From: Planctomycetota bacterium
Lineage (GTDB): Bacteria > Planctomycetota > Planctomycetia > Pirellulales > Pirellulaceae
Assembly (NCBI GenBank): GCA_014381825.1
Contig: JACNKX010000149.1
Location: 1-64,000, forward strand
Reading direction: 5' to 3'
DNA: 64,000 nt
Part shown: positions 34,301-55,638 of the stretch, piece by piece
How the letters are laid out: each line of letters starts with the position of its first letter
How positions within the stretch are numbered: position 1 is the first letter of the stretch
The notes under the pieces: model-generated
The model's database searches: none
What the model saw: the letters and a program-made list of their open reading frames with translations, nothing else
Told to the model about the DNA's origin: nothing
Made by a program: the position numbers and the translations under genes

Positions 34301-35118
34301 TGGCGTCGGCGAGTGGCCAGCTTGATGCTTGGATTGACTTTAACCAAGATGGCGACTGGAATGACGCTGGCGAGCAAATCTTTGCTTCGCAATTGTTGAG
34401 TGCCGCAGACACGGTCTTGACCGTGAATGTGCCGGGCAACGCATTGCCGGGTGACACGTTTGCGAGATTCCGCCTCAGTGGATCTGGCAATCTTCGTCCG
34501 AACGGTCCGGCCGCGGACGGTGAAGTGGAAGATTACCAAGTTTCGATTGTTGGGAACCCTTGGCATAATCCAGAGAATCCATTGGACGTGGATCGAAGTA
34601 ATTTCGTCGTTCCATTGGATGCGTTGATTGTCATCAATTATATCAATGCCAATGGCACTGGGCCGCTGCCTGCACTGCCCGGTCTAGACGATCACCGCGT
34701 CGACACGAATGGAGATGGTTCAGCGACCCCGATTGATGTCTTACGGATTGTCAACGCATTGAACGACCCATCGTTCCAGCCAGAAGGTGAGGCGAGCATT
34801 GACGTTCTGCCCATCGCGCAAAGTGACACTTCCGACGACCTTGCCGAGTCGTTCGCAACAGATGTCGTGATCGATCAGCGTATCGAAGTCTATGACCAGC
34901 AAGAAACGCAGCCGCAAGTTCGGCAAGCGATTCGCGAGGCGAAGTTTGTCAGTGCCAGCAACGAAGTGTTTGGAAGTGTTGATGCCTTCGCGGGAGCGGT
35001 TGATGGCCAGAGCGATTCGAGTGATCGTGGGCGTGGCGATGCTGACGAGTTGGATGACTTGACGCCCGATTCGTCTTGGGAATCAGGTGTCGACGACATC
35101 TTTGGCGACTGGGTGTAA
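16315..35118 (+). CDS. Giant LEPR-type surface protein with metalloprotease-like site, repeats, GEVED and dockerins (6267 residues)
   Basis: An ATG with AGGGG at 7 bases begins an Arg-rich N-terminus with the planctomycete LEPR-XLL motif LLEPLEQRQLLA (residues 33-44); there is no classical signal peptide. In order: Ig-like N-terminal domain; three 'VELN...AIN..AS' modules (about 110-650); metzincin-type zinc site HEIGHMLGLGH at 836-846; a PPC domain (about 867-1000); parallel-beta-helix-like stretches from about 1040; a choice-of-anchor L domain (about 1850-2090); a second PPC (about 2150-2310); about 16 'DG.TF.I...FEFD' repeats between about 3300 and 5820; a GEVED domain (about 5922-6080); two dockerin-type repeats (about 6091-6154); and an acidic tail ending GVDDIFGDWV. 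It is probably exported and surface-bound, and may be calcium dependent. Its N-terminal third is repeated in the gene starting at 59033. Whether the protease site is active is untested. Confidence 0.92.
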   Translation: MPNRRPLRSHWKFFNSRKRRAERLDRRISRRSLLEPLEQRQLLAVGPQLAGIQLNDGDLLRDGSVRQISPSELVFSFNDGAAIDPDTLSGIRLTRSGGDGLFSTATATSDFNTAGQVVIDFTAANSGESGNDISISVIKNAVPSSPLVSVLGNNISVELNSTTGTTAAELVDAINNDLDASRLLVANIRRGSGSTNLATPAINYSPIVTGGANAASITHNLNLGTSVEVKLTANQAGPAGAGIEVAIARVDFGGVAPPRVTVTDRLVTVELNSNSASPTTLGEFVGAINGDAAASNLITATLEVGDPNFVIGNRVGALRLPLANISDIPIVAGFVGLGDSPRQVVMRFSEPLPDDLYHVEIIGSGPFALRNVNGGAFRDATDDLVDDGADFGLSFELDLGAQILSVVPQPVLVNSISNVRSQFRDRINVYFNDDDLHPTETFTGLEATDPTVVDPAFYQLIFTNDTVQNTDDVVYFPTLVQYNPASDLAVLVFDEPIDQLGSGPGTFRLRIGTDEVLPLPPLSSAAGFATTSTDFGTQGAESITITASQDFATRVSVEFTKRDFGAAGTPVVSVVGQEISVELNTNAGNESTAQQVVSAINSNAQASQLVTASLAIGTGTTDIATTALATTLTLTGVGSSFETASKLGTLAGQSQSLVVSAAIDPQAFALDFPGDEDEPGHRDLRPELQRHFLTDFNADNLDGITTAFYNFENQIGFDPQGNAILNAITEAQKERTREIYSLYSAEIGINFIETANLGMTVATGDLRAIDSTVKNGPGGTIGLACPNPPIPDGLGTYACFVGNNGLLDGLAIMDLQDFSDPGADAFGGSWFLTAMHEIGHMLGLGHTDELPELTILNGGGSANPLAFPENTVEPIFPGDHDIVHGQNLYRPDSKDIDLFQFQLPENGRLSIETFAERLQDTSRLDTVASLFRQTADGSRELIARNDDYYSNDSYIELDLPAGTYWVGVSASGNDEYDPAIDDSGLGGTTDGPYDLRLNFRPDADRTIVDATGVRLDGDVDGVPGGVYDTWFRATEVSKNIFVDKSAPSAGNGTLGTPFQLISNALASAQSGDVVRILANGGADRNLATPEDNRAYEIGFNRLGAPLADGTTLEVPQGVTVVVDAGAVIKLRRARIGVGSSSVNVDRSAGALQILGTPVLLDAFNQVARDPLGEPIPGSVFLTSIHDSEIGFDTNPDSFPPDAVAGDWGGIVFRNDIDQQDANRFNYERQGIFLNVVSNAALSYGGGTVLINGASQVVTPIHITDSRPTIAFNDISFSADAAMSASPNSFEETNFESPPFQFTPFTSDYDRVGPNLFGNTAIGNSINGLFVRVTTPAGNALQPLTVPARLDDTDLPYVLADQLVIQGTPGGHELEIDTPTVQLVTSTPVAGGSLAAGTYNYRVVFVDADGNEGAPSSPTGSATIDANSNLQSIRLDNLPVATAGFISRRIYRSQPTGNANGAFVLVGEININSTSFTDTGGSLGRQLTGSSFGTLRARLDARLAIDPGVVVKLNGGGIESTLGGDFYAEGVDGREIVFTSIYDDRYGGGGSFDTTSDLDQVVAAPGDWGGLTGGHLTNFSLDNVLVAFGGGIIDIEGSFAGFNPIELQQSTARITHSTFEDNGSGTGGQAGFDRAGRGFNRPGTIFVRGAQPTIVDNDIFGSLGPAINIDVNSLNREAVRDRGRSSFNANADSLIELVDVALDNQGPLVRLNRLSNNSTNGMQVRGGTLTTEGVWDDTDIVHVVVNESINVSEFHTFGGLRLESSATESLVVKLSGSNADFTATGLPLDIDDRIGGALQIIGQPGHPVVLTSLADDTVGAGFQPDGLPQLDTNNDGIADLSAVTPTAADILTVTSTSIDGNALRDALLGPGVTAIGNATLIGGPTSAGFFSGGSTGIGIESGIILSNGNAPFASGPNISDFSTGIASLQPDADLDAAFNVATTDTTYLQFDFSSDSSELFFNYVFASEEYNEFANSAFNDVFGFFLDGQNIALLPGTTTQVSINTVNGGGPIFGLNPQNPQFYVNNDPSNAGLFLNEVGYDGFTVRLTAQVTNLAPGPHTIKLAVSDVVDTALDSGIFLETGSFSNEVISRGGPGDWGSIALEQYSHDRNVESIVEAEPAESAAPGVNGTPQLAQVLGLLAPNEKAGDENLRLGFELQGSLTAPDDIDVYSFSGQPGTEVWLDIDATRNSLDTVVELVDASGTVLARSDNSLDEAIDPGLLVKSASMGATGVNPLRKSSYDPLNPTVPSALEIPDRYSTNPRDAGMRVVLPGQPGVSNIYHVRVRSSSDNLADITAGKTFGNYQLQVRLRELDEVPGSTVRYSDIRFATTGVELFGLPAHSPITGEAGEIETFDQFTGTFTNPNDSLGTAQDVGNVAQSDRGVIGVSGELSEEDDVDFYRLIVEYDRVQPSPPNDHLAAIFDIDYADGLGRPSTVLSVFDSDGVLILRSKGSNVADDRSPPLSGSGITELSAGSVGTDDPYIGPVELPAGPELVPDGLNDASDREVYYVAVSSNTQLPTELQQYLDPNPANPLIRMEPVNSIRRIAEDRISFGFGQTVAEPPEITVLLDPTTSVVPFTLGDVTLFVSQDIGLVANTTSTLHYVDPFTGDVEATAGSFPEPIADIAIRGDGNLFAFATGPDNNRGLFNDGTIGSYTQINTGDATTTNFSDDSITTNVQTVTLALGVERAPLGNNNAGVGIEWDAITYQSDVDVQFGNGFVVGSTGDARDNDPDQVGLAGTDYLENVLFHFDTRNGVVANQAPSSPNRMGTALLNGVGTDKREYGEILTFTRIVPLSADIGDTFVLTIAGESISYTVVGVPIDLGNPFGVVLQGRDQEVVAGLANAWQAKALTSPAFAAFEVLNSGQLNSFIQNSVFGLATELRVRLVDPAFADVEIEWSVIEGSVSPNFIGFNSFATPTVFIEGNGPGGRVTGIDFVGNDMYAVTDRGGLYQVDLFGGFGTFIFTGTSFFSSNNLATYVSSSAIDLMTGDNGQPIEFSGLTAGPENVANGQYADTLFGITDGGELYAFNTRGELQPIFVNDQTSVDTGLFAVNGLAFSNLDRNLWEVTGNRGNNPGHGLNGGPNADYETFDHSQQDLPTGGSSFFFGNDRDSNVGGNQRFLGGPFTRDYNFAGGAHGTVITNPFSLEGYAPADLPVLYFNYFLDTEGTDYDPAPNPDILTRDSFRVFVSDDDGEWTLLATNNVFQDAVLTDEFDFGEGYDPSVFDFDALCQYPSADGEPCVQPLFDNTGGWRQARISLGRFAGSENLRLRFDFSTAGEMDLGPAGIDTVGSVGSELRAVSGAILRDGQNFTLDFSNRLEFDFGYTLDAPNGSQIQDGDSFTISPSSGRTITFEFDNDSGFAHDIAVQNGIDYRDGQTFTVTSGNVTETFEFDSGASLLVPLAGANALSDGQTFEVNGVTFEFDDDGVFAGGNNIVELIVDQGIRIPAVGGGTGGLSDGELFTINDGAGGADISFEFDDDGLVNPGSRAVDTTNIELQVPIAGFGFGGIQDGDTFSVDNGSGNQPTVFEFDKDNSVGIGNRVISVTDSSSQSAVVGAIINALNIANLGLNPASQGGGVIRMGVFRHTVDTSDTATLSDRTIAATANEIADRMVDLILNSGLRLTPTNLGNGPIQPNPDNGLIQLGSTVHVVTTTSAPSLTVQLVRGNQDEISDLMIAAIVNAAVNITPVNLGGGEVFLGATTSVDVTGAPALNISGTPGLNDASANAVVFTPTQSSDVIANSITVAINTVFGINAVTNGSVVALPPGVSFSAGGSAVNPADVISVTFDADTNPEGIARNIEDAIQGAFTPAVSTVDLTIESNDRFATATDTGITGGPTLFRSSGVIGDNPAFPFKAGLDVDFVRMDLATGDEVSITAVSSTFTLQPAIQLFDQQGRLIRTSSAGFNFLTGSATQANIDFTAVTPGTYFVGVSSTGNLDYNPDFAGSADVTLRIPFQGSAIGGLTDGESISISQGLGGTPVVFEFDRNNVVAANAISISLDDIVLQVPAAGVGPGGIQDGDTFTINDNAGSGDVVFEFDTDGIVNTGATSIFVSQGLTPQTIASQIGFAISSNPSVGLSPTFTGTNTVELNTTIHSVDISGTPNLVQLTTPRTQAELLTLLRDAIRTAGLGLAPQLASTTFTFGTFTSTFFTGGLTLDITDQVVDASLAPNVTEVIPTATGGYDLSIDIVESFDVFRIDNRVNLPSAQTIVQSGLPSSFISGRPGVTAGRTAVNVNSGMSSTDVAQVTATAIGQSIAGYTDQIVAVSGADIADGEIFAISDGNTTVNFEFESGYSIQIPDPATDPNALLDGESFTISRPGSSIDFEFDNNGIVSPGNLGLRVNDLIIEIPAGGVTEDLDGDGRLDFFNEDVNFNGILDLGEDIDLDGNLDLGNEDRNFNFVLDGGIEDGDTFTIDRGPGTPTITFEYDTDAVTTFGNEVISVTPVSDETQVSNATVAVLNNAGLGLDARIIGVGGGGNPFSFFFGSSSLLIQLGITDHNVDMTLTPTVSTSTTPRTQDELAELIVDVVGGSGLGILPTYLGNGAIHLGGTASHNLDLSNVATITSTGLPGASDPNAIVIPVFPSSTVSAADVSQLILSAINTARVNRNLSVVAVADGARRVNLLGATVLTDFTQAPSIPVHRSGATVTSYQNIVNVVDHTVTNPGPLGLEEALAGDEFGAFEASGIPPANPYPGALRGLDNAREGVYVDDIIIGFAERGEVVIGATADATFVRNPELFNIELPVEFLPANDIREGSYELEIRRAEEFGRTVGDLGTEIFLQRSFDTNDRITDAVSFVAPAGHEIVEGLTFTLSDGSDTVTFEFDDLAINDGVALTTVRIPYNVRDTESVIARRIRDAINLPISQSILDITAAMADGVVTGAQASPTSPLSSSSVVNLFGNSPLLTFQATSGSRNVTAAEPNDVTISAIDTGIGTSGVSDFTGTGTIGDNANIALSSADVDLFGMELIAGQTITIDVDTQQGTGALSPILLVFDAQFQGFVSGIIGSSFQFTAFSTGVHYIGLSGAFNFNYSPFIEGSGAQFAGQFGSTFSTGDYVINISTDESSGFGVTEFTDTGDRNVVREQGQVLIHSNSITNSLNFGVASAAGARDGSGGTPHVGPPRTTREVNAVGLTTGVVIANNVIAGNGRGGISFTGDVNPIGLQTAATPFGRIVNNTIVGDGSGTGILVADNASPTLLNNIVADLDIGISVDPTSVSTIIGGTLYRGNATNASGTSLGASAIQLTDPLDPLFVDESTGNYYLAPGARAIDSSIDSLQDRPEIVAVRAPLGYPTSPILAPDMDALGQRRVDDPSVSSGSGQGSNVFKDRGALDRADFAGPTATLISPRDNDALGFDSDGRTTFVNLTNQIVQNFSIQLLDGIEPNDPQDGTGASDASVRADRVTVFRDDEKLIEGVDYKFSYDATNNIIRLTPLAGIWEIDRKYDIELSNSRGLLITAPNGTEVVDGDSFGLTDDFGNAVNFEFDSGYVLEVPQTLALQVPATGGMTINDRDTITVTNAATSVTEIFEFDLDGFTTGSNIPISFTRFDSANTLANSIVDAIQLADTDLELSPVNVLNFNGRAVHLGTKSTHLVDLTNTSLLATGQLDGIDDGQTFSIDNGERRVIFEFSSSGGLTDGDRAIPFSFSETHEQIAESIVSAITLEGLDLNPSYVALSSGLINVGGEFKHLIDVTNSTLISTGTPGATLEFGIRVPTVAGELDLETIMDSEEFTISDGTDFLTIELDNDGIVAPDDPDSHPRVVVTFNDSTTTGQLVNAIAIAIRNGGVGLSPSNAGNGVVRLGGTLLHTLDVTNSSFTQLGSPGIAASIAVPFKAGNSFTAGVPSRTPIFSADEMAQSIAGAVDVAGASNRLRDAIATVQGPDINIEGISNVTGLATFLRSDIVDIAGNPLKPNREDGTTRFTVAVGSGVDYGDAPAPYPTQLADDGARHEVVGDFFLGSGVDVDFDGQPTDLADGDNNDGSDDENGVVFNTVLTGGFGGTITVMASASGQLDAWIDFNQDGDWNDAGEQIFASQLLSAADTVLTVNVPGNALPGDTFARFRLSGSGNLRPNGPAADGEVEDYQVSIVGNPWHNPENPLDVDRSNFVVPLDALIVINYINANGTGPLPALPGLDDHRVDTNGDGSATPIDVLRIVNALNDPSFQPEGEASIDVLPIAQSDTSDDLAESFATDVVIDQRIEVYDQQETQPQVRQAIREAKFVSASNEVFGSVDAFAGAVDGQSDSSDRGRGDADELDDLTPDSSWESGVDDIFGDWV
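26212..33770 (+). repeat. About 16 interspersed 'DG-TF-I...FEFD' protein repeats
   Basis: Within the giant gene a unit recurs about 16 times: a start like IQDGDTFTI or LSDGQTFEV, then a Gly/Asn-rich turn, FEFD, an Asp/Gly loop, then either a short link (LQVPAAG...GG) into the next unit or a longer tail with an amphipathic helix (T...IA..IV.AI) and an LG...H.VD beta pair. Units are 30-110 residues and are interrupted by a PPC domain near 27760-28170 and by other modules at about 30260-30660 and 31030-32690. DNA identity between units is low, so the duplications are old. Confidence 0.8.
29368..29517 (+). repeat. Four tandem Asp/Asn-rich 12-13-residue calcium-loop-like repeats
   Basis: Residues 4352-4401 of the giant divide into EDLDGDGRLDFFN, EDVNFNGILDLG, EDIDLDGNLDLGN and EDRNFNFVLDGG. 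Each has the D/N-x-D/N-G-x-L-D spacing of EF-hand or dockerin loops. The block sits between two FEFD repeats where other units have only a few glycine-rich residues. Calcium binding is inferred from the pattern. Confidence 0.7.
34585..34775 (+). other. Dockerin-type repeat pair near the C-terminus of the giant protein
   Basis: Two loop-helix repeats: a degenerate first copy (VDRSNFVVPLDALIVINYIN) and a better second copy (VDTNGDGSATPIDVLRIVNA). Equivalent pairs occur in the next three genes at about 37411-37605, 41710-41930 and 42861-43045, with the shared pattern DVNxDGxVSPxDALxVINxL. In dockerins this loop binds calcium and the pair docks onto cohesins. Confidence 0.78.
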
Positions 35119-35286: not shown

Positions 35287-37947
35287 ATGCCGCGACAAAC
35301 CCGATCTATTCGAAAGTCTGCACGTCGCAAGGCGCGAAACCGGTCTCGGATACACTCTAACCGGCTAAACGGCTTCGAGCCTCTTGAAGAGCGAATCACG
35401 CTGTCAGCGACGCCGTTTGGAGCCCAGCCGAACGACACGGCCGAGTTTCTTCTCGGGAGCGTCAACGTTTCTGTTGTACTCTTGGAGTCGAACAGCGTTC
35501 TGAGCGCTGACAACCCGACGGTCGGGACGCCTCAGGAAGAGAATTGGACCCAGCAGAGTATCGATTCAGTTAAGCAGAAGGTTACTGACGGATTGCAATG
35601 GTGGGTTGATACGCTTGCTGGAATCACGGACAAGCATCAGTTGACGTTTAATATCGATTTTACGCACGCCGATTCGCCAGTTTCGACTCGGTTCGAGCCC
35701 ATTACACAACCTTCCACCGATTATCAGTTCTGGGTTTACGACCTTCTTAACACTGAGGTTAACACAACTGGTTCGTTCACAACCGACATAAAGACTTTCA
35801 ACAATGAGGAACGCGAGGCCAACGACACGAACTGGGCCTTTACGATCTTCGTGGTGAATGACGAGAACGACGCTGACCATCGCTTCGCAACTGGTGGGCT
35901 GGATCGAGCATTCGCATTCCCAGGCGGGCTGTTTCTCGTGACGTTGGCGAGCCGCCCGGCAAGCACGATCACTCACGAGACCGGTCACATCTTTTGGGCG
36001 TTAGACGAGTATCAGGGTGGAGGCCTTGGGTATACCGACTCTCGCGGTTACTACGATACGCAAAATACCAATGCTTGGAACAACCCGACGCCAGGCTATG
36101 TTCGTAATCCCAGCATCATGGACCGAGGTTCTTGCGGCGAAGGCGGTGGTCTGTTGTGCGACGCTTACCAGCAGCACACAAGTTCTGATTCGTCGCTCGA
36201 AATGCTTGGCTGGCGCGACTCGGATGGAGACGGGATCTTCGACGTTCTAGATGTTCCGCATACGCTCGAAGGCACAGGTTCCTACGATCCCGTGACCGGG
36301 ACGTATCGGTTCGTTGGCGAGTCTTCCGTTCAGACGCTTCCGAATTTGAATCCGCGTTCTTCTTCACTGCCCACTGAAAGTTTGCAGAACGATATAACGA
36401 TCAACCGAATCAGCCGTGTCGAATATCAGATCGACGAGCAAGGCTGGCAGACCGCAGCAACTCCCGATACGTATGTGGCGACATTAGACGTCAATTTCGC
36501 AGTGCCTTCGACCGCGAATCAAGTTGAGATCCGAACGATCGATGCAGTGACAGGCGTAACCTCGCCGGTCTTTTTAGCAGATCTAACCCGCCCCGCTTCG
36601 GTGCCACAAACTGGTATCACCGGTTTCGTGTTTGGTGACGAAAACAGCGATGGGCAGATCGAATCAGGCGAGGGCGGTCTTGCCGGACGAACTGTGCGCT
36701 TGGTTGATGCGTCGGGCCAGGCACTCAGCCTACAAAAGGGCATCGAGCCCGATGACTACGCGGCGAATGCGGTGATCGGGAACGTGAGTCCTGATGCAAC
36801 GCTGACGGCGATCGGAACAGCGACTTCCGGCGGGACGGTCTACGCCAGATCGGTCGGACAGAGTTCGACTGGAAGCCAAGCCTTCAGCGCGTGTAGTTTC
36901 ACTGGTAGCGGCGGTGCATGCAGCATCTACCAAACGGAGTGGACTTCGCGTACGAGGCAACTGCGTATCGATATTGCTTCACCAGCGAGTACGGTGAGCA
37001 TCGACGCCTTAAGCAACAACAACGACGACTATGGACGCCTTGCGATCTACGACGCGAACAATAACCTCCTCGCTCGTTACACGACGAATGCACTTGCGTC
37101 TGGGCAAATTGAGACCATGACGCTCAGCCGCCCAACGGCTGACATCGCATACGCAATTGCTGGTGGCCATGCCGACACAGGTGTGCGATTAGACAACCTA
37201 CGGTTTGGTCCTCAGGCGAGCACGATGACGGATGAATTCGGTGCCTACTCGCTTCCGTCGTTGGACGTGGGAACCTACATGGTGCAAGTGGAATCTCTGG
37301 CTGGTTCGCAAGCGACATCTCCTACCACCCAGACCGTTGCTCTGTCAGCGAACTCTCCATCGGCGACTGCCGACTTTGGTTTCGTAGCGTTCGTTAGCCC
37401 TTGGCAAAATCAATCAAACCGGTTCGACGTGAACAACGACGGCGTCGTTTCACCGATCGATGCTCTGCAGGTCATCAACGATCTCAACGCCAGAGGCTCG
37501 AGAACTCTGACGGTGTCAGATGCGACACCGCCGTTCATTGACGTCGACGGCGATGGGCACGCTGCACCGATCGATGTACTTCAGGTAATTAACTCGATCG
37601 AAGCGTCACTTTCCGAAGGGGAAGCGATGGGCGGGGGTGAGTCCGCTGTGGTTATCGTCGGTTCGCCCGAAGCAGCCGCTGAGGGTGAGTTTGTTTCGCC
37701 CATCGGCCAAAGCGAGAATAGCGCCGTTGGCCATCGCCCGATTCAGTTGGCGGACATCCACTCCTTGGACGGACCGACGGTCCTCAAGTCCTTCTTTTCG
37801 GAAGCGGTACTCACTGAACTGACCGATATCAGCCGAGAGCCTTCAACGGTCGAGACCGCGAGCCAAGAAGAATTGCTGGCAGGGTCGCCGTTGGACGATG
37901 CGATCGACGCGTTTGCCGACGAAGTCGCGGCAATTTGGGGCACTTAG
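35287..37947 (+). CDS. LEPR-type surface protein with HExxH metallopeptidase domain and dockerins
   Basis: The 886-residue protein has an Arg/Lys-rich N-terminus and the LEPR-like motif GFEPLEERITLSA at residues 29-41. Residues about 55-310 form a zinc-peptidase domain with HETGHIFWALDEY starting at residue 230; HExxH followed by a downstream DEY resembles the M64 (IgA peptidase) type. An SdrD-B-like domain begins at ITGFVFGDENSDGQIESGEGG (about 443) but is interrupted by about 165 residues of beta-rich sequence before its end (MTDEFGAYSLPSL). A dockerin pair follows at about 709-773 (FDVNNDGVVSPIDALQVIND; IDVDGDGHAAPIDVLQVINS), then an acidic tail ending DDAIDAFADEVAAIWGT. It is probably a secreted, surface-tethered protease. 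It lies 168 bp downstream of the giant gene on the same strand. Confidence 0.9.
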   Translation: MPRQTRSIRKSARRKARNRSRIHSNRLNGFEPLEERITLSATPFGAQPNDTAEFLLGSVNVSVVLLESNSVLSADNPTVGTPQEENWTQQSIDSVKQKVTDGLQWWVDTLAGITDKHQLTFNIDFTHADSPVSTRFEPITQPSTDYQFWVYDLLNTEVNTTGSFTTDIKTFNNEEREANDTNWAFTIFVVNDENDADHRFATGGLDRAFAFPGGLFLVTLASRPASTITHETGHIFWALDEYQGGGLGYTDSRGYYDTQNTNAWNNPTPGYVRNPSIMDRGSCGEGGGLLCDAYQQHTSSDSSLEMLGWRDSDGDGIFDVLDVPHTLEGTGSYDPVTGTYRFVGESSVQTLPNLNPRSSSLPTESLQNDITINRISRVEYQIDEQGWQTAATPDTYVATLDVNFAVPSTANQVEIRTIDAVTGVTSPVFLADLTRPASVPQTGITGFVFGDENSDGQIESGEGGLAGRTVRLVDASGQALSLQKGIEPDDYAANAVIGNVSPDATLTAIGTATSGGTVYARSVGQSSTGSQAFSACSFTGSGGACSIYQTEWTSRTRQLRIDIASPASTVSIDALSNNNDDYGRLAIYDANNNLLARYTTNALASGQIETMTLSRPTADIAYAIAGGHADTGVRLDNLRFGPQASTMTDEFGAYSLPSLDVGTYMVQVESLAGSQATSPTTQTVALSANSPSATADFGFVAFVSPWQNQSNRFDVNNDGVVSPIDALQVINDLNARGSRTLTVSDATPPFIDVDGDGHAAPIDVLQVINSIEASLSEGEAMGGGESAVVIVGSPEAAAEGEFVSPIGQSENSAVGHRPIQLADIHSLDGPTVLKSFFSEAVLTELTDISREPSTVETASQEELLAGSPLDDAIDAFADEVAAIWGT

Positions 37948-38200: not shown

Positions 38201-41200
38201 ATGAGCAAGCCCAAGCCGAATCGGCGACACAGCCGACCAATCTCTCGGTACGCGCGGCCCCGAGTATTTTCCAGACGTCGCGCGTTACAGATGGAATCAC
38301 TCCAGGAACGAGCCATGTTGGCGAGCGACTTGGCAATATTTGACTTCGCGGAAGGTGAAGGCGAAGACTCGTTGCTCGCGGTAACGTTGGATGCTGTGAA
38401 TCCTGAGACGTTTCAGCCGCTGTCCGAACTCCATCAAGGCGAAGAGTTCGTCCTGCTCGCGTCCGTCGAAGATCTGCGCCCGAACGGTTCCGGAGTTTTC
38501 GGGGCTTATCTTGACTTGTTGTATCCGTCGAGTTTTTTTACTGCGGCGGGAAACACACCGCTCGTTTACGGAAGCGGATTTGGCAATGGACGCTCTGGTG
38601 AAGTGTTGAATGGAGTGGTCGATGAATTGGGCACTTTCGCCGCGAGTACGAATCCACCCGGGCCAAGCACGCAGCCATTGGCGGGTATCCGGCTCGTCGC
38701 GACACAAGTGGGCGAAGTTCAGTTTTCGTCGAACGCTGCGGACGAATCACCAGCGCACGACATTCTGCTCTTCGACCGTGATGATCCGGTTTCAACGGAT
38801 CTTGTTAGGTACGGAGGTCTATCGCTCCAGATATTGGCTCCCTTGCCTGAAGCGACGGTTGACGCCATCGCCGATACACAAGCTGTGAATGAGAATAGCA
38901 CGGAGAATCTCTTCGCGGTCTTGGAAAACGATAAGAATACGACCGGCAGCCCACTGGTTATCACTGGTGTCGATGCCGCGACCGCACACGGCGACGTCAC
39001 AATCGCGAATAACGGTAGTTTGCTTGTCTATACGCCGGATCGAGGCTTCGTTGGGACAGATCAATTCACCTATACGGTTGCGGCTGGTGGTGAGCAGGAT
39101 TCGACGAACGTCACCGTCGAAGTCCAGCGAGTTGTCTCGCAGGAAGATCGTGTTGCTTACGACTTGGAGATCACGGACTCGGCGGGGAACCCGGTTTCGG
39201 CGGTCACAGTTGGCGACGACTTCGTTTTACACGTCTCTGCCGCAGATCTCCGCGATGTTCCAGCGGGTGTATTCGCAGCCTATTTAGATGTCATCTACAC
39301 GTCCGGTGCCGCCGACGTTACCGGGCCAATAACTTACGGTTCCAGCTATGCCAACGGTCAGCGCGGCGACGTTTCCGAGCCAGGCGAGATCGACGAAGTG
39401 GGAGCGTTTGCAGGTTCCACGCCGCTCGGTGGCGGCGGATTCGAAGTGTTTCAGATCCCGTTCCAAGCTACGTCCCCGGGCCGTGTGATTTTCGAAGCTG
39501 ATCCAGCCGATGATGTCCCCAATAGCGAAACGCTGTTGTACGACATCGACGCCGCCGTCGCGCTTGAAGACATTCGCTTTGGTCGAGTGGCTCTTACCGT
39601 CTTGCCGGCGGTTGTGGCTGTTGACGACACGTACGAACTGCAATTCGGTGGTTCGGCTCAGGTGTTCGCTGTTCTGGAAAACGATGTCAATTTCGGTAGC
39701 GGCACGTTAAGTGTTGTGTCAGTCGATGATTCTGGGTTGATTGGAGAAGTCGCGATCACGCCGGACGGACGGAGTGTGAGCTACACGCCGGCGGCTGGAT
39801 TCGGGGGCAGCGAGCAATTCCATTACACGATCTCGGGACCCGCCGGATCAAGTACCGCAGAAGTGACAGTTCATGTGCAACCGAACACGTCCGGCGATGA
39901 CGCGCTCGGCATTCGACTGGCCGCGACCGACTTGCAAGGAAACGTGATCTCGACGGTGGCCGCCGGACAAGAGTTTCTACTACAGGCATTCGTTCAGGAT
40001 ATTCGAGGCGAAGGCGCGAACCGTGGCGTTTATGCGACGTACTTCGACCTGCTCTATGAGCGAACTGGTGTCCATCCTGTTCAAACGCAAGTTAGCCCGG
40101 TTGGTCCCGTGATCGAGTTTGGACAGAACTATCAAAACGGTGTCCGCGGTGACGCCGCTGTTCCCGGGCTCTTTAATGAGATCGGTGCGTTTCAAACGGG
40201 TACAACACCGCTTGGAACGAGCGAATCTTTACTCTTTTCGGCCCGTTTCCAAGCCGCTCCTTCGCGAGGCGAATCCGATACGTTCGAGCTCTTCGAAGAT
40301 GGTGAAGCCGCGCTGCCGGTACTCAATAACGATATTCCGAATTCTGGGATGACCACTTTCCGTTCTGATCCGGCTGACGAGTTGCCGGTGTCGGACGCGC
40401 TGTTCTATGATCCCGTGCAATCAGTTCCGTACGATGAGATTCGATATGGCAATGCGACCATCGAAATCTCGACGGGAAGCGGAGCCGCAATTTCCGCCGT
40501 CAGTTCGACCAGCGCCGGCGGCACTGTTTCGATCGACGCCAGCGGGACATCGCTTCTCTACGAACCGGCTCGAAACTTCAATGGGGTCGAGACATTTACA
40601 TACACGCTCGACGGAGGATCGCCCGTTGAAGTGTCTGTCAACGTATTGCCCGTCAACGATGCGCCTGTGGCAGCAAGTGACACCTATCGAGCACGCGAGA
40701 ATCGGGTCTTGACGGTGGGCGCGAATGTCGGCGTTGCAGCGAACGATACAGATGTCGATCATGATGCGCTAGAAGCCTCGCTCCTAAACGACACATCGAA
40801 CGGGACGTTGCAGTTGGCTGCTGACGGCTCGTTCACCTACGCTCCCGACGAAGGTTTTCTTGGGCTTGATAGCTTCACTTACAGAGTGACGGATGGTCAA
40901 CTCGAATCTCTCGCCGCGACCGTCGAGATCGAGGTTGTGCCGCGTCCAGTGAGTATCCGATTGGAGGCCGTTGGCGAAAATGGCGAGCCGATAGGCGAGG
41001 TTGTGGCCGATGAAGTGTTGATCGTTCGCACGTTGGTGCAAGATTTGAGATCCGCAAGCGACGCTCAGTTGGGGCTCGGTGCGGTGTACTTGGATATCGC
41101 CTACGATGTCGACGATATCACGCCTGCAACATCAACGGATGGCCCTCTGGGGCTCGAGATCGAATTCAGTTCAGCCTATCAAAATGGCATTGGAGGTGAA

Positions 41201-42235
41201 TTGTTGCCGGAGGGTAAATTGAACGATATTGGCGCATTTCAAGGAGATTTCCAGGCACTCGGAGGCGACGAGTTGGAGTTGTTCACAGCCGCCTTTAATG
41301 TGAAAGGACCGCGAGCGATTGACGATTCATTCACGGTTGCGGAAGGCGCCTTGGTCAATCACTTGAACGCGTTGGATAACGAGCGTGATATTCGATGGAA
41401 CGTTACGCTTGACGCCCAACATGCTTCGAACAGCCCGGTTGCCGACGTTGCGTACCTTGATCCCGCCGAAGCCGTCCCAGAAGAAGACATCCGCTACCGT
41501 GACATCACACTTGGAGTTCGCAATGGGGCTTTGACGATCCAATCCGTTGGCGAGACGGTGAGTGGTGCCGCAGTTTCGATTCAGGCGAATGGCGTTATCG
41601 ACTACCAACCGGTCGCCGGATTCCTTGGGCAAGATTCATTCACTTACACCATTGCCGACAGTCTAGGTCGCACGAGTACGGCCACGATAACTGTTCAAGT
41701 AGCTGCCTCTTGGCAGAACCCAGTCCAGCCAACGGACGTTAATGGCGACGGAGACGACTCGCCACTCGATGCGCTGATCATCATCAATGTACTGAACACG
41801 TTGGGTGCTCATGAACTCGGTGACGGCGTGATCACAGCGTTTCTGGACGTCAATGGCGATGGCGTCGTTTCCCCGATCGATGCACTTTTAGTCATTAATC
41901 GGCTCATTTTGAGTGCGATCTCGGGCGAAGGCGAGCTTGGTTCGAAAGCGGTCGATGCACCGGTCCTCGCTTTCGACTCACCGGCGAGAACTCCACTTAT
42001 TGCAATGGATGTGATGGCGAGCAGCGTGGTTAGCGCTCCTGATGCAATTACGGAATTGCCCGAGCAAGTCGCCGTACTCTCGAAGTTCGAGCGCGCGTAT
42101 CCTGAGGCGTCCGGTTTGACAACACGTCCAAGAGCCGATCGCCCCCTTTCCGGAGACTCTGCGGAAGATGAGTTGCGTGGCTTGCTAGAGACGCTCGCGG
42201 AAGATATAGCACCCCGTTGGGATGCTTTTTCTTGA
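38201..42235 (+). CDS. LEPR-type protein with cohesin-like and cadherin-like modules and dockerins
   Basis: I start at the ATG at 38201 (1344 residues), just after an AGGAGG, where the basic N-terminus MSKPKPNRRHSRP begins; the frame is open upstream to a TTG at 38096 but nothing supports it. The LEPR-like motif is MESLQERAMLAS (31-42). Four cohesin-like modules follow, recognisable by VEDLR/AYLDLLY, a YQNGxxG turn, (N)DE(I/V)GAF and a DPADE..P...LL(Y/F)D end. They alternate with cadherin-like Ig domains (VLENDKN..., GFxGxDxFTYTI). In modules 3 and 4 the first half of a cadherin-like domain is embedded in the cohesin-like module. The C-terminus has a dockerin pair (TDVNGDGDDSPLDALIIINV; LDVNGDGVVSPIDALLVINR) and an acidic tail ending EDIAPRWDAFS. 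A likely role is cell-surface scaffolding. A hairpin GTTAGCG/CGCTAAC at 37958-37974 lies in the leader. Confidence 0.87.
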   Translation: MSKPKPNRRHSRPISRYARPRVFSRRRALQMESLQERAMLASDLAIFDFAEGEGEDSLLAVTLDAVNPETFQPLSELHQGEEFVLLASVEDLRPNGSGVFGAYLDLLYPSSFFTAAGNTPLVYGSGFGNGRSGEVLNGVVDELGTFAASTNPPGPSTQPLAGIRLVATQVGEVQFSSNAADESPAHDILLFDRDDPVSTDLVRYGGLSLQILAPLPEATVDAIADTQAVNENSTENLFAVLENDKNTTGSPLVITGVDAATAHGDVTIANNGSLLVYTPDRGFVGTDQFTYTVAAGGEQDSTNVTVEVQRVVSQEDRVAYDLEITDSAGNPVSAVTVGDDFVLHVSAADLRDVPAGVFAAYLDVIYTSGAADVTGPITYGSSYANGQRGDVSEPGEIDEVGAFAGSTPLGGGGFEVFQIPFQATSPGRVIFEADPADDVPNSETLLYDIDAAVALEDIRFGRVALTVLPAVVAVDDTYELQFGGSAQVFAVLENDVNFGSGTLSVVSVDDSGLIGEVAITPDGRSVSYTPAAGFGGSEQFHYTISGPAGSSTAEVTVHVQPNTSGDDALGIRLAATDLQGNVISTVAAGQEFLLQAFVQDIRGEGANRGVYATYFDLLYERTGVHPVQTQVSPVGPVIEFGQNYQNGVRGDAAVPGLFNEIGAFQTGTTPLGTSESLLFSARFQAAPSRGESDTFELFEDGEAALPVLNNDIPNSGMTTFRSDPADELPVSDALFYDPVQSVPYDEIRYGNATIEISTGSGAAISAVSSTSAGGTVSIDASGTSLLYEPARNFNGVETFTYTLDGGSPVEVSVNVLPVNDAPVAASDTYRARENRVLTVGANVGVAANDTDVDHDALEASLLNDTSNGTLQLAADGSFTYAPDEGFLGLDSFTYRVTDGQLESLAATVEIEVVPRPVSIRLEAVGENGEPIGEVVADEVLIVRTLVQDLRSASDAQLGLGAVYLDIAYDVDDITPATSTDGPLGLEIEFSSAYQNGIGGELLPEGKLNDIGAFQGDFQALGGDELELFTAAFNVKGPRAIDDSFTVAEGALVNHLNALDNERDIRWNVTLDAQHASNSPVADVAYLDPAEAVPEEDIRYRDITLGVRNGALTIQSVGETVSGAAVSIQANGVIDYQPVAGFLGQDSFTYTIADSLGRTSTATITVQVAASWQNPVQPTDVNGDGDDSPLDALIIINVLNTLGAHELGDGVITAFLDVNGDGVVSPIDALLVINRLILSAISGEGELGSKAVDAPVLAFDSPARTPLIAMDVMASSVVSAPDAITELPEQVAVLSKFERAYPEASGLTTRPRADRPLSGDSAEDELRGLLETLAEDIAPRWDAFS
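38374..41520 (+). repeat. Four cohesin-like modules
   Basis: Modules at about 38374-38840, 39150-39607, 39906-40470 and 40950-41520 share the same order of motifs: (L/I)xxxVEDLR, (G/A)VYxxYxDLLY, FGxxYQNGxRG, xxNE(I/V)GAF, DPADE and (E/D)(D/E)IRYG. They are clearly homologous at protein level. The fold assignment to cohesin is my inference from the pattern and the co-occurring dockerins. Confidence 0.65.
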
Positions 42236-42689
42236 CTCGCCGTACCAGCCGATATAACCGGCAGACTCGATCGAGGTGTTCTAGGGACAGCTCTTCCTAG
42301 CCGAGATCGACCCACCAATCCGCCACAATTCCGTTCGGATTCCATTGGATATTTGTGTTGGAATGGGTATGCTAGGTGGCTTGCGTCGGTGTGTTCCTGT
42401 GGCAGAGGCGACCATCACAGTCGTTTGTTAATGGGGTAAATAGGTTGTTTGAGACGGATTTGTTCCGTAAGTCGCAAATTATTTGCAAACGTCAGAATTC
42501 CTGACTACTCTGGACTTTAACTCTGCGGGAACTAGTTTTACCTCCGTCTTTGAGCCCCCTTCTCATTAAAGGTCACTACACGACTGGTAATAGTGGTTGT
42601 TTAGTGATCGAGGAGTTCGCCGGCGACGGCTGTCACGTACAGGTTTTCTGCCTCAAACCTCAAAAGCGATAGGTTTATTTGTAGGAAAA
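42236..42689. other. 454-bp intergenic region before the fourth LEPR gene
   Basis: No gene is seen. The second half (42420-42690) is AT-rich for this genome and holds a perfect 13-base palindrome GCAAATTATTTGC at 42474-42486. It probably carries the promoter and a long leader of the next gene. An upstream in-frame TTG at 42597 exists but the first codons after it look like leader sequence. Confidence 0.5.
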
Positions 42690-45600
42690 ATGAGCAAACA
42701 TATGAACAAGCTAAGTCGCCGATTCAGTGGTAATTGGGCCAAGATGTTACAAAACTCGCGCAAGCGTCAACAACGTCGGCGTCTAATGGCAGAGCCATTG
42801 GAAGATCGCCGGTTGTTGGCCGTCGACATCAACGCGTTCCATAACTACCAACATCCGACGGATACCAATCAGGACGAGGCAGTTTCGCCGCTCGACGCAC
42901 TGGTTGTGATCAACCATATCAACGGTGCATCGGGACTCGCGGAAGGTGACGGTGCTCCCGGGAATTCGGTAATGAAGCCGGACGTCAATGGTGACGGTTT
43001 TGTCAGCCCATTAGATGTTCTGAATGTCATCAACGACCTCGCCGAGGGTGAAGCGGGTAATGTCGTCACATTCAGCCATCAAGCCACTAACGTAGCGGGC
43101 GATCCAATCACGACCGTGAGCGTCGGCCAGACGTTCGTCTTCCAGACGCTCGTCGAAGATACGCGAGCGAGCGCACAAGGTCTCTTTGCTGCCTACTTTG
43201 ATTTGGATTACAACGAGAGCCTCGTTGGGGTCAATGAACGCGAGTCACAGACCGTTCAGCTCTCTGCAATTCCAAGTGCGCTTAACGCACAGAGAGGTAA
43301 TCCAACGGTCTCATTCCGATTGAGTCTTAACGGTAACGCCACGGCACCCATTGAGCTTCTCAAGGAAATCAAAGTTACAGATACTTTCTTTGTCACGGAT
43401 GCGAACTCTGTTGCACTGAACAATGCCGGTGCAGTGCAGAACGCATTGTTGGGCTTGCCGGGCGTTAATCCTGGCGATATCGAAGTCGTGCCATTGACCG
43501 GTGGTACTGTCAACGGTGGATTCTCGCTCAACTTTGAAGTGAAGTTTGGGGGGCAGTTTGCAGGGACGGACGTGAACAAGCTCGTTCCCTCCGAGGTTCA
43601 ATTGACGAGTGCGGCGTCCGGAACGACGACACCGACAGTCACCGTTTTCAATACGAGTGACGAGTTGCTGGTGCCGACTCTCGCACAGCTGCAGGTAGAT
43701 GAACCTACGACGACGCAGCAAGATCGTGACGCGCTGGTCGCTCGAAGTGAAGCAACGCGATGGTTCACGTTTGCGTTCCCGAAGTTTTCGAGTGGACATA
43801 GTGGCGGACATGGGACCCTCAGCGGCCCGAACGCGATCATTGACGAACTTGGTGCGTTCACGTCCAATCAAACTCCAGGTGACGGTACACCTGAAGTTCT
43901 CGTTGAAGTGCAGTTCACGGCACTGGCTGGCGGATCGGCGATGTTTATTGGCAATCCAGCAGACCAGGCACCAGATCATGACGTGCTCGTATTCGGACTC
44001 GACAATGCGGTCAGTACCGCTGACATTGGCTTTATGCCTTTGACCTTATCGGTTGTGAGCGATATCACAGCAGAGGCCGACTCGGGCAGCGTTAATGAAA
44101 ACGCTGGGCCGATTTTCATCAACGTCTTGGCCAATGACAGTATCAGCACTGGCAGCGGACCGACGATCACGAATCCCATTCCCACCACTTCCGCAAACGG
44201 CGGCACTGTGGCACAGTCTGGCAACAATGGGTTCAATTACACCCCGGCTACCAACTTTAACGGCACGGACACCTTCAACTACACGATCACAAACGGTTCG
44301 ACCACTGCCAGCGCGACTGTGACCGTGACCGTCAACCCAGTCGACGACGCCCCCGTGATCTCGGGTCCGACAGCCACTTCTACTAATGAAGATACGACAC
44401 TCGCTCTTAGTGGGTTCTCGATTGTCGATTCCGACAGTAATAACATTAGCGTCACACTGACAGCAAATGGCGCGCTAAGTCAGACATCCTTCTCGGGAAC
44501 GCCGAGCCAAGTCACGAACACACTTAACAGCGTGACCTACACGCCACTGTCCAATTCCACCGCATCGGACACGATCTCTATTAGCGCCAGTGACTCAAAC
44601 TCGTCGGATAGCCATACGGTCAACATCACGATCAATCCGATTAATGACCCGCCAGTTAACACCTTCCCCGGACCAGCGAGTTTGTTTAATACGGAAACCC
44701 TCGCTTTTACATCGAACGAGTTTCAGGTTTCCGACGTTGACGCCAGCACGCTGGAGGTGACTCTGAGCGTTGGCCAAGGCACCGTTTCATTAGGCACGAC
44801 CAGCGGTCTGCAGGTTAGCGGAAACAACTCGACGTCGCTGACTGCGACCGGCTCGATTTCCAATCTCAACACCAGTCTCAATAGCTTGCTTTACGATCCA
44901 ATCGATACATTCATCGGGACGGACACACTCACAATGACGACCAGTGATCTCGGTGCGACGGGTAGCGGTGGGACGCTGACGGATACGGACACAGTGTCGC
45001 TGACCGTTGCTCCGCCACAAGTTCCGTTTGCTGCCTCGGATACATACCACGCGGATGAAGGGACCGGATCATTCGTGCTGAGTCCCAATCCGTTAAGCAA
45101 CGATCTCATGGATCCAGGGGCGACATTGAACGTTAGTGGCGGGATTGTTGACGGGACGAACAATCAGGGTGGAAGTCTAAGTTTCAGCAACGGCAACTTC
45201 ACTTACACACCACCGTCGAACGTCGATTTCTTTGGCACCGAGACCTTTACCTACACGATCGTCCAGGATCCAGCGCCAAGCAGCACTGGAGACACGAGCG
45301 ATTCCGGCACCATCACGATTGAGATCCAGCCGATTAATGATGGACCGGTCAACTCCTTGGGCGGTTCGCCGATCAGCACCTCGCCGACCGTTACCGGTAG
45401 CGAAGACAACGTCTTGGCATTCAGCAGTTCCAATGCCTTGACCATTAGCGATATCGACGCCGGCACGGGAGACGTCACTGTCACGTTGACGGTCAACAGC
45501 GGCACGCTGAACGTGACCAATACCGGCGGAGTGCAAGGCAACAGTAGTGGCCAACTCACGATTGATGGTACGGTCTCGCAAGTCAACAACACGCTGGGTG

Positions 45601-46901
45601 GTCTGACTTACACGCCGCAAGACGACTTCTTTGGGGATGATTCACTGGTGATCAACACCAATGACAATGGCAATACCGGTGCGACTGCGCTCTCCGACAA
45701 CGACACCGTGAACATCACGATCAGCCCCATCAACGATGCCCCCACCTTGGTCGTGCCAGGCAAGCAATCGTTCTTTACGGATTTCGATAATCGCTTCTCA
45801 TCCGATCCAGCTCCGTTCTCAATTAACGATATTGATGCCGGCACCGAAGATGTTCAGGTTGATTTGACGATTGCCGATGGCACATTAACGATCGGCAGTA
45901 CCTCGGGCGTGACGGTAACGCCGAATCCAGGCGGCAGCAACGGCATCCGCATTACGGGGTCGGTATCGAACATTAACAACGCGTTGGCCAGTGGTCTCGA
46001 CTTCAGATCCGGCACGCCGAGTAGTAGCAATCCTCTTACGGCAGTCGTGAATGACTTGGCCAACACCGGCAGCGGCAATCAGCTGACGGCGTCGGCCACA
46101 GTGGATGTTGAAGTCCTTGACTTCGTGCCCGTCGATATCATTGGACGAGTGTTCGTCGACGACAATGCCGACGGACAGAAGGATAGCAACGAACCGGCGA
46201 TTGAAGGCGTTGATGTAACACTCACCGGTACCGACTTCCAGGGTAACAACGTCAGCATAACAGTCACCACAAACGCGCTAGGCAATTACTCGTTCCTTAA
46301 TCTTCGGCCCAACGCCGAGGGTCAACCATACACGATCACTCAGGAACAGCCCGTCTTCATTCAAAATGGACAGGGCGACAGCGATCAGGCGACGATCGAC
46401 CTGGATGTTAACGGAAACGTCATCGTCAGAAGCGGAGCGCTCAACTTCTCTGAAGCCGGCTTTGTTCCCGAGTTCGCGGATGTATGGAGATTATTCTCCT
46501 TGTCCGAAGAGGCACCGAATAATTCGGGAATTCTATTCGGCATGCAGGGTGCTCAAGAATGGTCGATGTTCCTCGGCTCCGGTTGGGACATGACGCGTTA
46601 TGGTAACGCCCGCTTCACGCCCGGACAGGACGGTAATTCCGGTGTGTTGACTGTCTTTGATAGTCAAGCTGGCGAAGACCGCACCGCGAATGTATCGACC
46701 CAGTCTGGCACGTTGAGTTACCGCGGCACCGGTTCGGATCGCGTCTATCGAATCATCGGCGGATCGTCGTTGCTGGGAACTGTCACCAATGGGGCAAATC
46801 CAGAAGGCGAGAGCGATGACGAGACCAAAGCTGATGCCACGAAAGATGGAGCCACTTACGCCTCTGGAGTTGATGCACTCTTCGCAAGTGGCGGGCTGTA
46901 G
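42690..46901 (+). CDS. LEPR-type protein with N-terminal dockerins, cohesin-like and cadherin-like repeats, SdrD-B-like domain
   Basis: The ATG at 42690 (about 1403 residues) has AGGA three bases upstream; ATG 42702 is a close alternative. The basic N-terminus leads to MAEPLEDRRLLAVD (33-46). Unusually, the dockerin pair follows at once (about 58-119: TDTNQDEAVSPLDALVVINH; PDVNGDGFVSPLDVLNVIND). Next comes a cohesin-like module (VEDTRASAQGLFAAYFDLDY ... IIDELGAF) split by an insert of about 173 residues, then about six cadherin-like domains rich in Ser, Thr and Asn (NEDTTLALSGF, NFNGTDTFNYTI, NDAP links), and an SdrD-B-like domain near 1148 (GRVFVDDNADGQKDSNEPAI). The tail ends SGVDALFASGGL, similar to the giant's tail. 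A likely role is a surface adhesin or scaffold. A strong terminator follows. Confidence 0.87.
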   Translation: MSKHMNKLSRRFSGNWAKMLQNSRKRQQRRRLMAEPLEDRRLLAVDINAFHNYQHPTDTNQDEAVSPLDALVVINHINGASGLAEGDGAPGNSVMKPDVNGDGFVSPLDVLNVINDLAEGEAGNVVTFSHQATNVAGDPITTVSVGQTFVFQTLVEDTRASAQGLFAAYFDLDYNESLVGVNERESQTVQLSAIPSALNAQRGNPTVSFRLSLNGNATAPIELLKEIKVTDTFFVTDANSVALNNAGAVQNALLGLPGVNPGDIEVVPLTGGTVNGGFSLNFEVKFGGQFAGTDVNKLVPSEVQLTSAASGTTTPTVTVFNTSDELLVPTLAQLQVDEPTTTQQDRDALVARSEATRWFTFAFPKFSSGHSGGHGTLSGPNAIIDELGAFTSNQTPGDGTPEVLVEVQFTALAGGSAMFIGNPADQAPDHDVLVFGLDNAVSTADIGFMPLTLSVVSDITAEADSGSVNENAGPIFINVLANDSISTGSGPTITNPIPTTSANGGTVAQSGNNGFNYTPATNFNGTDTFNYTITNGSTTASATVTVTVNPVDDAPVISGPTATSTNEDTTLALSGFSIVDSDSNNISVTLTANGALSQTSFSGTPSQVTNTLNSVTYTPLSNSTASDTISISASDSNSSDSHTVNITINPINDPPVNTFPGPASLFNTETLAFTSNEFQVSDVDASTLEVTLSVGQGTVSLGTTSGLQVSGNNSTSLTATGSISNLNTSLNSLLYDPIDTFIGTDTLTMTTSDLGATGSGGTLTDTDTVSLTVAPPQVPFAASDTYHADEGTGSFVLSPNPLSNDLMDPGATLNVSGGIVDGTNNQGGSLSFSNGNFTYTPPSNVDFFGTETFTYTIVQDPAPSSTGDTSDSGTITIEIQPINDGPVNSLGGSPISTSPTVTGSEDNVLAFSSSNALTISDIDAGTGDVTVTLTVNSGTLNVTNTGGVQGNSSGQLTIDGTVSQVNNTLGGLTYTPQDDFFGDDSLVINTNDNGNTGATALSDNDTVNITISPINDAPTLVVPGKQSFFTDFDNRFSSDPAPFSINDIDAGTEDVQVDLTIADGTLTIGSTSGVTVTPNPGGSNGIRITGSVSNINNALASGLDFRSGTPSSSNPLTAVVNDLANTGSGNQLTASATVDVEVLDFVPVDIIGRVFVDDNADGQKDSNEPAIEGVDVTLTGTDFQGNNVSITVTTNALGNYSFLNLRPNAEGQPYTITQEQPVFIQNGQGDSDQATIDLDVNGNVIVRSGALNFSEAGFVPEFADVWRLFSLSEEAPNNSGILFGMQGAQEWSMFLGSGWDMTRYGNARFTPGQDGNSGVLTVFDSQAGEDRTANVSTQSGTLSYRGTGSDRVYRIIGGSSLLGTVTNGANPEGESDDETKADATKDGATYASGVDALFASGGL

Positions 46902-54563: not shown

Positions 54564-54624
54564 TTCACAAGATCTCATTGAGAATAGACAACGCCTTTAA
54601 CGAGACTGACAGGAGTCGATAACC

Positions 54625-55557: not shown

Positions 55558-55638
55558 AGTCACGCCAATGTAGGGTGACGGCGTAAGCCGCACCACTTGC
55601 TCAATAGAAACTCAAAACTCCATCTCTAATTTTCAACT

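Follow-up and report, generated by a model that had tools for sequence, protein, structure and literature searches.

A planctomycete protein with two probable pairs of interleaved cohesin-like and cadherin-like domains

Domain organization of the protein

The window, by which we mean the whole 64,000-nucleotide stretch of DNA that was analysed, encodes on its forward strand a large planctomycete protein of 1344 amino acids that is probably secreted. The ATG at position 38201 was taken as the start codon in preference to the upstream TTG given in the open-reading-frame list. The protein consists of four modules, in each of which a cohesin-like domain (A) is associated with a Big_9/cadherin-like domain (B), a further Big_9 domain and a C-terminal dockerin. 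The first strands of the cohesin-like domain are denoted A1 and its last strands A2; in the Big_9 domain, B1 comprises the first two strands and B2 the remainder. The features are as follows.

38201–42235, forward strand: protein of 1344 amino acids with four cohesin-like modules, five Big_9/cadherin-like domains and a C-terminal dockerin
38372–39130, forward strand: module 1, ordinary order (cohesin-like A, 38372–38839; Big_9 B, 38855–39130)
39149–39883, forward strand: module 2, ordinary order (cohesin-like A, 39149–39607; Big_9 B, 39611–39883)
39902–40255, forward strand: module 3 A1, cohesin-like strands preceding the insert (ends uncertain by ±3 residues)
40265–40348, forward strand: module 3 B1, Big_9 strands 1–2, within the cohesin-like domain
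40349–40471, forward strand: module 3 A2, cohesin-like strands following the insert
40472–40651, forward strand: module 3 B2, remainder of Big_9, with no B1 immediately upstream
40661–40939, forward strand: a complete Big_9 domain that separates module 3 from module 4
40946–41311, forward strand: module 4 A1, cohesin-like strands preceding the insert, plus linker
41312–41398, forward strand: module 4 B1, Big_9 strands 1–2 (the final residues are possibly part of A2)
41399–41518, forward strand: module 4 A2, cohesin-like strands following the insert
41519–41704, forward strand: module 4 B2, remainder of Big_9
41732–41905, forward strand: dockerin type I (PF00404, E = 5.4e-12, residues 1178–1235)

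The dockerin scores 46.2 bits against PF00404, over the Pfam cut-off of 22.9. No match to the Pfam Cohesin family (PF00963) was found in the protein at E ≤ 1; the genome as a whole gave two weak matches to this family, none above the cut-off and neither in the 1344-residue protein, and a PDB sequence search with the cohesin-like profile returned one match, with an E value of 1.4.

Segment order in modules 3 and 4

Modules 1 and 2 follow the order A1-A2-B1-B2 and, as the first-pass annotation had stated, are uninterrupted in their cohesin-like part: module 2, which reads FQATSPGRVIFEADPADD, carries no insert, nor does module 1, which reads RLVATQVGEVQFSSNAADE. The extra residues described in that annotation were found at the same coordinates, 28 of them in module 3 (RGESDTFELFEDGEAALPVLNNDIPNSG, 40265–40348) and 29 in module 4 (RAIDDSFTVAEGALVNHLNALDNERDIRW, 41312–41398). 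Using HMMs of the individual parts, which were built without interleaved sequences, the order in both modules is A1-B1-A2-B2, with the first two Big_9 strands placed in a cohesin-like loop and A2 separating B1 from B2. The remainder of the Big_9 domain in module 3 starts only past the cohesin-like end (ISAVSSTSAGGTVSI, from 40490). Scanned alone, modules 3 and 4 match Big_9 at profile positions 32–78 and 31–88 of 89, with 34.2 and 46.6 bits, respectively (Pfam cut-off 23.6), so that about 30 positions are absent from the downstream piece; the Cadherin_5 scores are 24.7 (under the cut-off of 26.5) and 32.8. Big_9 is therefore not one continuous full-profile stretch in either module, the missing part lying upstream of A2, and the earlier claim that the second half of the cadherin-like domain follows the cohesin-like end agrees with both the sequence and the truncated Pfam matches. 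Interleaving would be the cause of the truncated Big_9 matches in such modules.

The proposal that the inserts are the first strands of a cadherin-like domain is supported by their match to the profile of ordinary B1 segments. Against an HMM of such segments only, the 24 inserts examined scored 13.4–35.6 bits, values to be read with caution because the 24 modules were classed as interleaved partly through a B1 match of at least 5 bits. None of 12,000 shuffled inserts (500 shuffles per insert) reached the real score, and ordinary loops used as a control gave a score against the same HMM in 41 of 48 cases, with a maximum of 2.0. In four of four comparisons B1 had a dN/dS of 0.135–0.369, with dS near saturation and B1 only 27–29 codons long. 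The A1–A2 spacing is bimodal: 47 of the 48 ordinary modules have a gap of 0–4 residues (18 in the remaining one), and in each of the 20 interleaved modules where A2 was detected the gap is 26–53 residues. Sequence comparison shows the segment order, its conservation and the relatedness of B1 to the B1 segments of ordinary modules.

Alternatively, the insert might be nothing more than an extended cohesin-like loop, and B2 a degenerate Big_9 domain that has lost its first strands. Inserts are tolerated in this setting, since a neighbouring protein has a different, larger one in its cohesin-like module, and the HMM did not recognize B1 in the counterparts of module 3 in two genomes (G433 and G073). 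This explanation is nevertheless very improbable, because the insert is B1 by profile and B2 lacks exactly that part; both changes also occur together in the 24 classified modules, although B1 matches were used in the classification.

Predicted structures and proposed arrangement

The AlphaFold2 models of modules 3 and 4 have pLDDT values of 79.1 and 85.4 and pTM values of 0.72 and 0.78, respectively. The alignments supplied to the prediction contained 16 rows, in which B1 occurred together with B2 only in modules 3 and 4 themselves; B2-only rows were used because full-length Big_9 rows and B1-only rows misaligned against the interleaved target. Compared with the cohesin 2vo8 (VIA-align), the model of module 3 gave a Z score of 13.0 (r.m.s.d. 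2.6, 128 of 135 residues aligned, model residues 1–192) and that of module 4 a Z score of 14.9 (r.m.s.d. 2.0, 133 of 135 residues aligned, model residues 1–194), in both cases across the insert. A1 and A2 of both modules are thus predicted to adopt together the jelly-roll β-sandwich fold of cohesins. Cohesins were also among the best Foldseek rows, with low TM-scores when normalized by the model (≤0.44 in the rows listed).

Residues 121–250 of the module 3 model match an Ig-like domain (8fwc_0, residues 69–154) with a Z score of 9.1 and an r.m.s.d. of 2.4. Only 82 residues are aligned over this range, which fits B1 and B2 forming a single predicted domain with A2 skipped. The Ig-like matches of module 3 come from a single phage protein with three entries, and their Z scores of 8.9–9.1 are not far above the range of 7–8 that is typical of the tool for models without a clear match. 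For module 4, no Ig-only chain appeared among the best 50 rows, which are filled by cohesins, and the union of its B1 and B2 into one putative domain is supported by sequence. B1–B2 contact was inferred from the alignment ranges of the models, and the cohesin fold of modules 3 and 4, like the joined Ig-like fold of module 3, is seen in the models only. The modelling called for by the first-pass annotation thus gave, for module 3, a cohesin fold spanning the insert and an Ig-like match covering B1 and B2 and, for module 4, the cohesin half only. The refuting outcome, in which the insert would be a simple cohesin loop with no relation to the downstream half, was not observed, and the match of one Ig-like domain over both B1 and B2 of module 3 likewise argues against the loop explanation.

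Each of modules 3 and 4 is probably a pair of domains that are interleaved, or mutually inserted, in the order A1-B1-A2-B2, so that neither domain could be excised as one intact segment. The claim of such an order occurring twice in one protein is upheld by the sequence and by the predicted structures. On this model, a cohesin-fold domain A and an Ig-like Big_9/cadherin-like domain B would share one chain: B1 would exit the loop between two late cohesin-like strands and complete B2, and the chain would go back for A2, finishing the cohesin fold ahead of B2. Three chain crossings would replace one short linker, which would fix the domains rigidly together, so that neither could unfold or swing alone. 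In a probably secreted protein that combines four cohesin-like modules with Big_9 spacers and a dockerin, the arrangement likely serves as a stiff joint orienting cohesin-like heads on a cadherin-like stalk or spacers.

B1 could also complete the B2 of another module or molecule by strand exchange, giving a swapped dimer or polymer. Donor-strand completion of this kind occurs in pili, which counts in favour of exchange; an exposed B1 could take part in it and the single-chain models are compatible with it. Completion within the module is favoured by the short A2–B2 gaps (3–8 residues in 18 of 20 interleaved modules) and by the confident single-chain models, and we regard exchange as very improbable. 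The same low probability attaches to interleaving as a polymerization device, in which B1 would complete the B2 of a neighbouring molecule to form fibres displaying cohesin-like heads.

Distribution, known systems and origin

Both interleaved modules are retained in the orthologues of three genomes (G001, G002 and G018), which represent two further species of the same genus and one of another genus. Interleaved order is present in at least 22 of 241 family genomes, in 13 genera, and also occurs in other proteins from other genera; the conservation of the order in homologues, which the first-pass annotation had proposed to examine, is thereby borne out. Separable order is found as well, both elsewhere in this protein and in numerous relatives. 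The first set of 18 fetched stretches contained four interleaved cases (L104–L107), the remainder, including G000:C136 (L093) and G373:C149 (L103), being ordinary or without a cohesin-like domain; the second set of 18 contained 15 (L157–L171) and three that were not interleaved (L172–L174). The genome sequence is a 238-contig draft, and an assembly or annotation artefact might be suspected; the same order in open frames of independent assemblies from other species and genera rules out an assembly artefact and leaves a negligible chance for an artefact of either kind.

Outside the family, no full-length match was among the matches listed for 392 phylum and 296 order genomes, sets that overlap and include family members and in which at most 11 and 15 candidates per genome, respectively, were scored. 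Two partial matches (G038:C4 and G740:C79) had no cohesin-like part in the fetched stretches; further partial matches are G114:C474 (profile positions 30–105) and G144:C2 (47–101). The viral contigs scanned gave nothing.

The domains themselves are known, and what is new is a variant arrangement of them. Cellulosomal and non-cellulosomal cohesin modules (PDB entries 2vo8, 2jh2 and 1aoh) share the predicted A1+A2 fold and the presence of a dockerin in the same protein, dockerin binding by the modules described here being putative, but differ in that they lack the B1 segment that splits A of modules 3 and 4. Big_9, Cadherin_5 and tandem-95 repeats (PF17963, PF17892 and NF012211) match the B domains of the protein; modules 3 and 4 depart from them in that A2 comes after the first two strands and before the rest. 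The paired β-propellers of DDB1 are an interleaved, or interdigitated, domain pair with alternating chain segments, and are alike in this respect although their folds are different.

Planctomycete proteins that carry cohesins and dockerins have been proposed to act as scaffolds of a `planctosome', in which cohesin–dockerin assembly would gather peptidases at the cell surface (PMC6461901); this is a parallel only, the word cadherin being absent from that text and the passages considered making no mention of interleaving. Among the matches listed, open-access literature on interleaved, interdigitated or intertwined domains and on cohesin or dockerin in planctomycetes does not describe the arrangement. 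Another paper (PMC13243795) concerns a trimeric phage fibre and is not relevant to it.

Domains are usually viewed as separable beads on a string or as nested inserts, but in this protein each of two common folds appears to be inserted into the other. The coexistence of ordinary and interleaved orders allows a change of chain order without loss of either fold, which can seldom be put to the test, to be studied, as well as any gain in stiffness or folding from the interleaved joint.

A quick tree of cohesin-like domains, with 127 left of 130 input rows once three interleaved rows too short after alignment had been dropped, required four changes of the ordinary/interleaved label, two of them forced by starred branches, compared with a mean of 19.8 when labels were shuffled. 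Constraining the 21 interleaved rows together cost 1.76 log-likelihood units (p-AU 0.484), and a single origin is thus neither shown nor rejected. No intermediate order A1-B1-A2-B1-B2 was present in the module tables. The order A1-B1-A2-B2 was most likely derived from A1-A2-B1-B2 by one segment moving past another, for which duplication combined with deletions in tandemly arrayed A-B units would be a possible route.

Order of segments in the cohesin-like protein

The protein at 38201-42235 (forward strand, 1344 residues) combines four cohesin-like modules (A) with five Big_9/cadherin-like domains (B) and has a dockerin in its C-terminal part. With A1 and A2 denoting the front and last strands of domain A, and B1 and B2 the first two strands and the rest of domain B, modules 1 and 2 display the ordinary order A1-A2-B1-B2 and modules 3 and 4 the interleaved order A1-B1-A2-B2. 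The first-pass annotation had read the inserts in the latter two modules as the first strands of a cadherin-like domain that is completed after the cohesin-like end; its insert positions are exact in the window sequence, so that the observation is confirmed, and this interleaved reading is supported as far as sequence and predicted structures go.

Inserts that interrupt the cohesin-like domains
40265-40348, forward strand: module 3 insert, 28 residues
41312-41398, forward strand: module 4 insert, 29 residues

When the modules are searched alone, the Pfam Big_9 match starts only at profile position 32 in module 3 and 31 in module 4. Part models were built from 11 ordinary cohesin-like domains (A1 and A2) and 17 ordinary Big_9 domains (B1 and B2), with no interleaved module among the sources; on the fetched loci they gave A1-B1-A2-B2 for window modules 3 and 4 and also for relatives. 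The module table, in which matches were collapsed on their first 60 residues so that a few ordinary modules may still be counted twice, contains 48 ordinary, 20 interleaved, four interleaved with A2 unscored and 63 other entries. A1 and A2 are separated by 0-4 residues in 47 of the 48 ordinary modules (18 in the remaining one) and by 26-53 residues in all 20 interleaved modules. The A2-B2 gap of the interleaved modules is short (3-8 residues in 18 of 20, with 17 and 18 in the remaining two), and therefore no second B1 is hidden there. The 24 inserts scored 13.4-35.6 bits against the B1 model and none of 12 000 shuffled inserts (500 each) reached the score of its own insert, versus a maximum of 2.0 for ordinary loops (41 of 48 gave a score); since classification required a B1 hit of 5 bits, this comparison gauges how strong the B1 signal is and does not serve as an unbiased test for discovering it. 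The module 3 counterpart inserts in two related genomes (G433 and G073) were not recognized by the B1 HMM and are readable by eye as degenerate B1.

Predicted structures of modules 3 and 4

Each AlphaFold2 model was built on a 16-row alignment whose sequences came solely from the window and one fetched stretch (L001). The ordinary B rows comprise B2 only, so that B1 is joined to B2 in modules 3 and 4 themselves and in no other row. The module 3 model has a mean pLDDT of 79.1 and a pTM of 0.72, with B1 strands at 126-131 and 136-138; the corresponding values for module 4 are 85.4 and 0.78. Cohesins are the top solved structures for both. Module 3 matches 2vo8 with a Z score of 13.0 (r.m.s.d. 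2.6, 128 of 135 residues, model 1-192) and module 4 with 14.9 (r.m.s.d. 2.0, 133 of 135 residues, model 1-194); given these spans, both A1 and A2 are required for the cohesin match.

Module 3 also matches 8fwc_0, the collar sheath of Agrobacterium phage Milano (Z score 9.1, r.m.s.d. 2.4, 21% identity over 82 residues, model 121-250, chain 69-154). Of the 130 model residues in this range 48 have no aligned partner, which corresponds in length to A2 with its linkers, and the chain skips four only. By this arithmetic on the alignment ranges, B1 and B2 of the model read as a single Ig-like domain that excludes A2. The matches to 8fwm_F (Z score 9.0, 85 aligned, model 117-250) and 8fxr_P3 (Z score 8.9, 82 aligned, model 120-250) are not independent, being further entries of the same phage, and a Z score of 9 is little above the level typical of models with no clear match. 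The predicted structure of module 3 is consistent with the proposed arrangement, with a cohesin match across the insert and an Ig-like match over the B1 and B2 ranges. The best 50 matches of module 4 are mostly cohesins and include no separate match for the Ig-like half; PrgB aligns over 1-253 (197 aligned, r.m.s.d. 7.7). In plain Foldseek the top-ranked structure for either model was 2w1n, a construct that joins a cohesin to fibronectin type III; the TM-score by model length was low (0.39).

Three chain crossings would take the place of a single linker. The joint would probably be stiff as a result, with the cohesin-like head held in a fixed position against the cadherin-like spacer and the two domains folding and unfolding together. 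Both domains are already known; no description of the interleaving as a conserved unit was found in the open-access literature searched.

Conservation, spread and origin

The order proved to be conserved in homologues: the orthologues in two further species of the genus, G002 (69% identity over a 603-residue query) and G001 (64%, front cut off by the contig end), and in another genus, G018 (52%), all retain both interleaved modules. Searching 241 family genomes with a junction profile (A1 tail-B1-A2; up to 18 candidates scored per genome) and reading fetched stretches placed interleaved modules in at least 22 genomes of at least 13 genera.

Genomes with interleaved modules, by basis of assignment
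Full HMM order (14): G000, G001, G002, G018, G016, G034, G066, G073, G085, G089, G102, G108, G433, G448
A1-B1-B2 by HMM, A2 by eye (3): G011, G023, G511
By eye, with A1, B1 and B2 hits (4): G035, G109, G510, G523
By eye, and also among the seeds of the junction profile: G003

The proteins vary in architecture: in G016, G102 and G034 the interleaved module lies near the N-terminus, followed by thioredoxin-like and cyclophilin-like parts read by eye. The proteins of stretches L105, L106 and L107 contain a single interleaved module near the N-terminus, then a thioredoxin-like motif (CPFC) and a region resembling cyclophilin (both by eye). Outside the family, no full-length junction match was present among the matches listed for 392 phylum and 296 order genomes (overlapping sets that partly comprise family members; at most 11 and 15 candidates scored per genome), which also gave some partial matches.

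Nei-Gojobori dN/dS of B1 is 0.341 for module 3 (G000/G002) and 0.135, 0.369 and 0.173 for three module 4 pairs; B1 therefore looks constrained, with dS near saturation, and in some other segments dS was undefined. In a quick tree built from 127 cohesin-like domains, 12 interleaved ones form a single group with a support of 90, comprising module 3 from the window's genus and G018 and module 4 from these and G066, G073, G089, G433 and G448. The remaining interleaved domains, among them the module 3 counterparts of G066, G089 and G448, are placed elsewhere, on weak branches. This tree requires the order to change four times, or twice by the starred branches, and monophyly of the 21 interleaved rows cannot be rejected (p-AU 0.484). 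We infer a route by duplication and deletion in a tandem A-B array such as is present in this protein; an intermediate carrying B1 twice was absent from the module tables of the fetched loci. We assume from cohesin topology that the last-strand end and the B1-carrying loop lie at the same pole, in which case the downstream domain could take its first strands from either site.

The cohesin-like family and neighbouring genes

The A domains adopt a cohesin fold in the models, yet the Pfam cohesin model does not recognize them. At E <= 1 the domain (for example 39149-39607) matches nothing in Pfam or NCBIfam and is, as judged by sequence, a family without a model in these libraries; the ordinary form has profile matches in 93 of 147 related genomes. 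Dockerin matches also occur in the neighbours 35287-37947 and 42597-46901, and Planc_extracel matches in two window proteins, the latter pointing to a planctomycete as the source. A scaffold built by planctomycete proteins with cohesin modules and dockerins, the planctosome, is proposed in PMC6461901.

The cohesin-like module of the next protein (43059-44060) carries an unrelated insert of ∼190 residues (43233-43811), with Big_9 then in ordinary order. The ORF at 16315-35118 (6267 residues) has GEVED and dockerin matches near its C-terminus and no Pfam family at 1e-4 in its first 3000 residues; farther on, the same contig contains open frames of 8591 to 11 105 residues. C-terminal tails of LLADDVxxLW type are located at 42164-42232 and 37894-37944, and in fetched stretches L087, L089, L091, L098, L099, L108, L110 and others. 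By a loose pattern devised after viewing the tails, and counting ORFs of both strands rather than only genes, they end 22 of the 59 complete ORFs in which a cohesin-like or dockerin-like motif occurs, versus two of 830 others, and could be a sorting or anchoring signal. Near the giant proteins, a SecA-like protein of 652 residues (48796-50754; DEAD, preprotein-binding and P-loop domains) adjoins proteins with HlyD- or biotin/lipoyl-type matches (52431-57894), possibly an export machinery.
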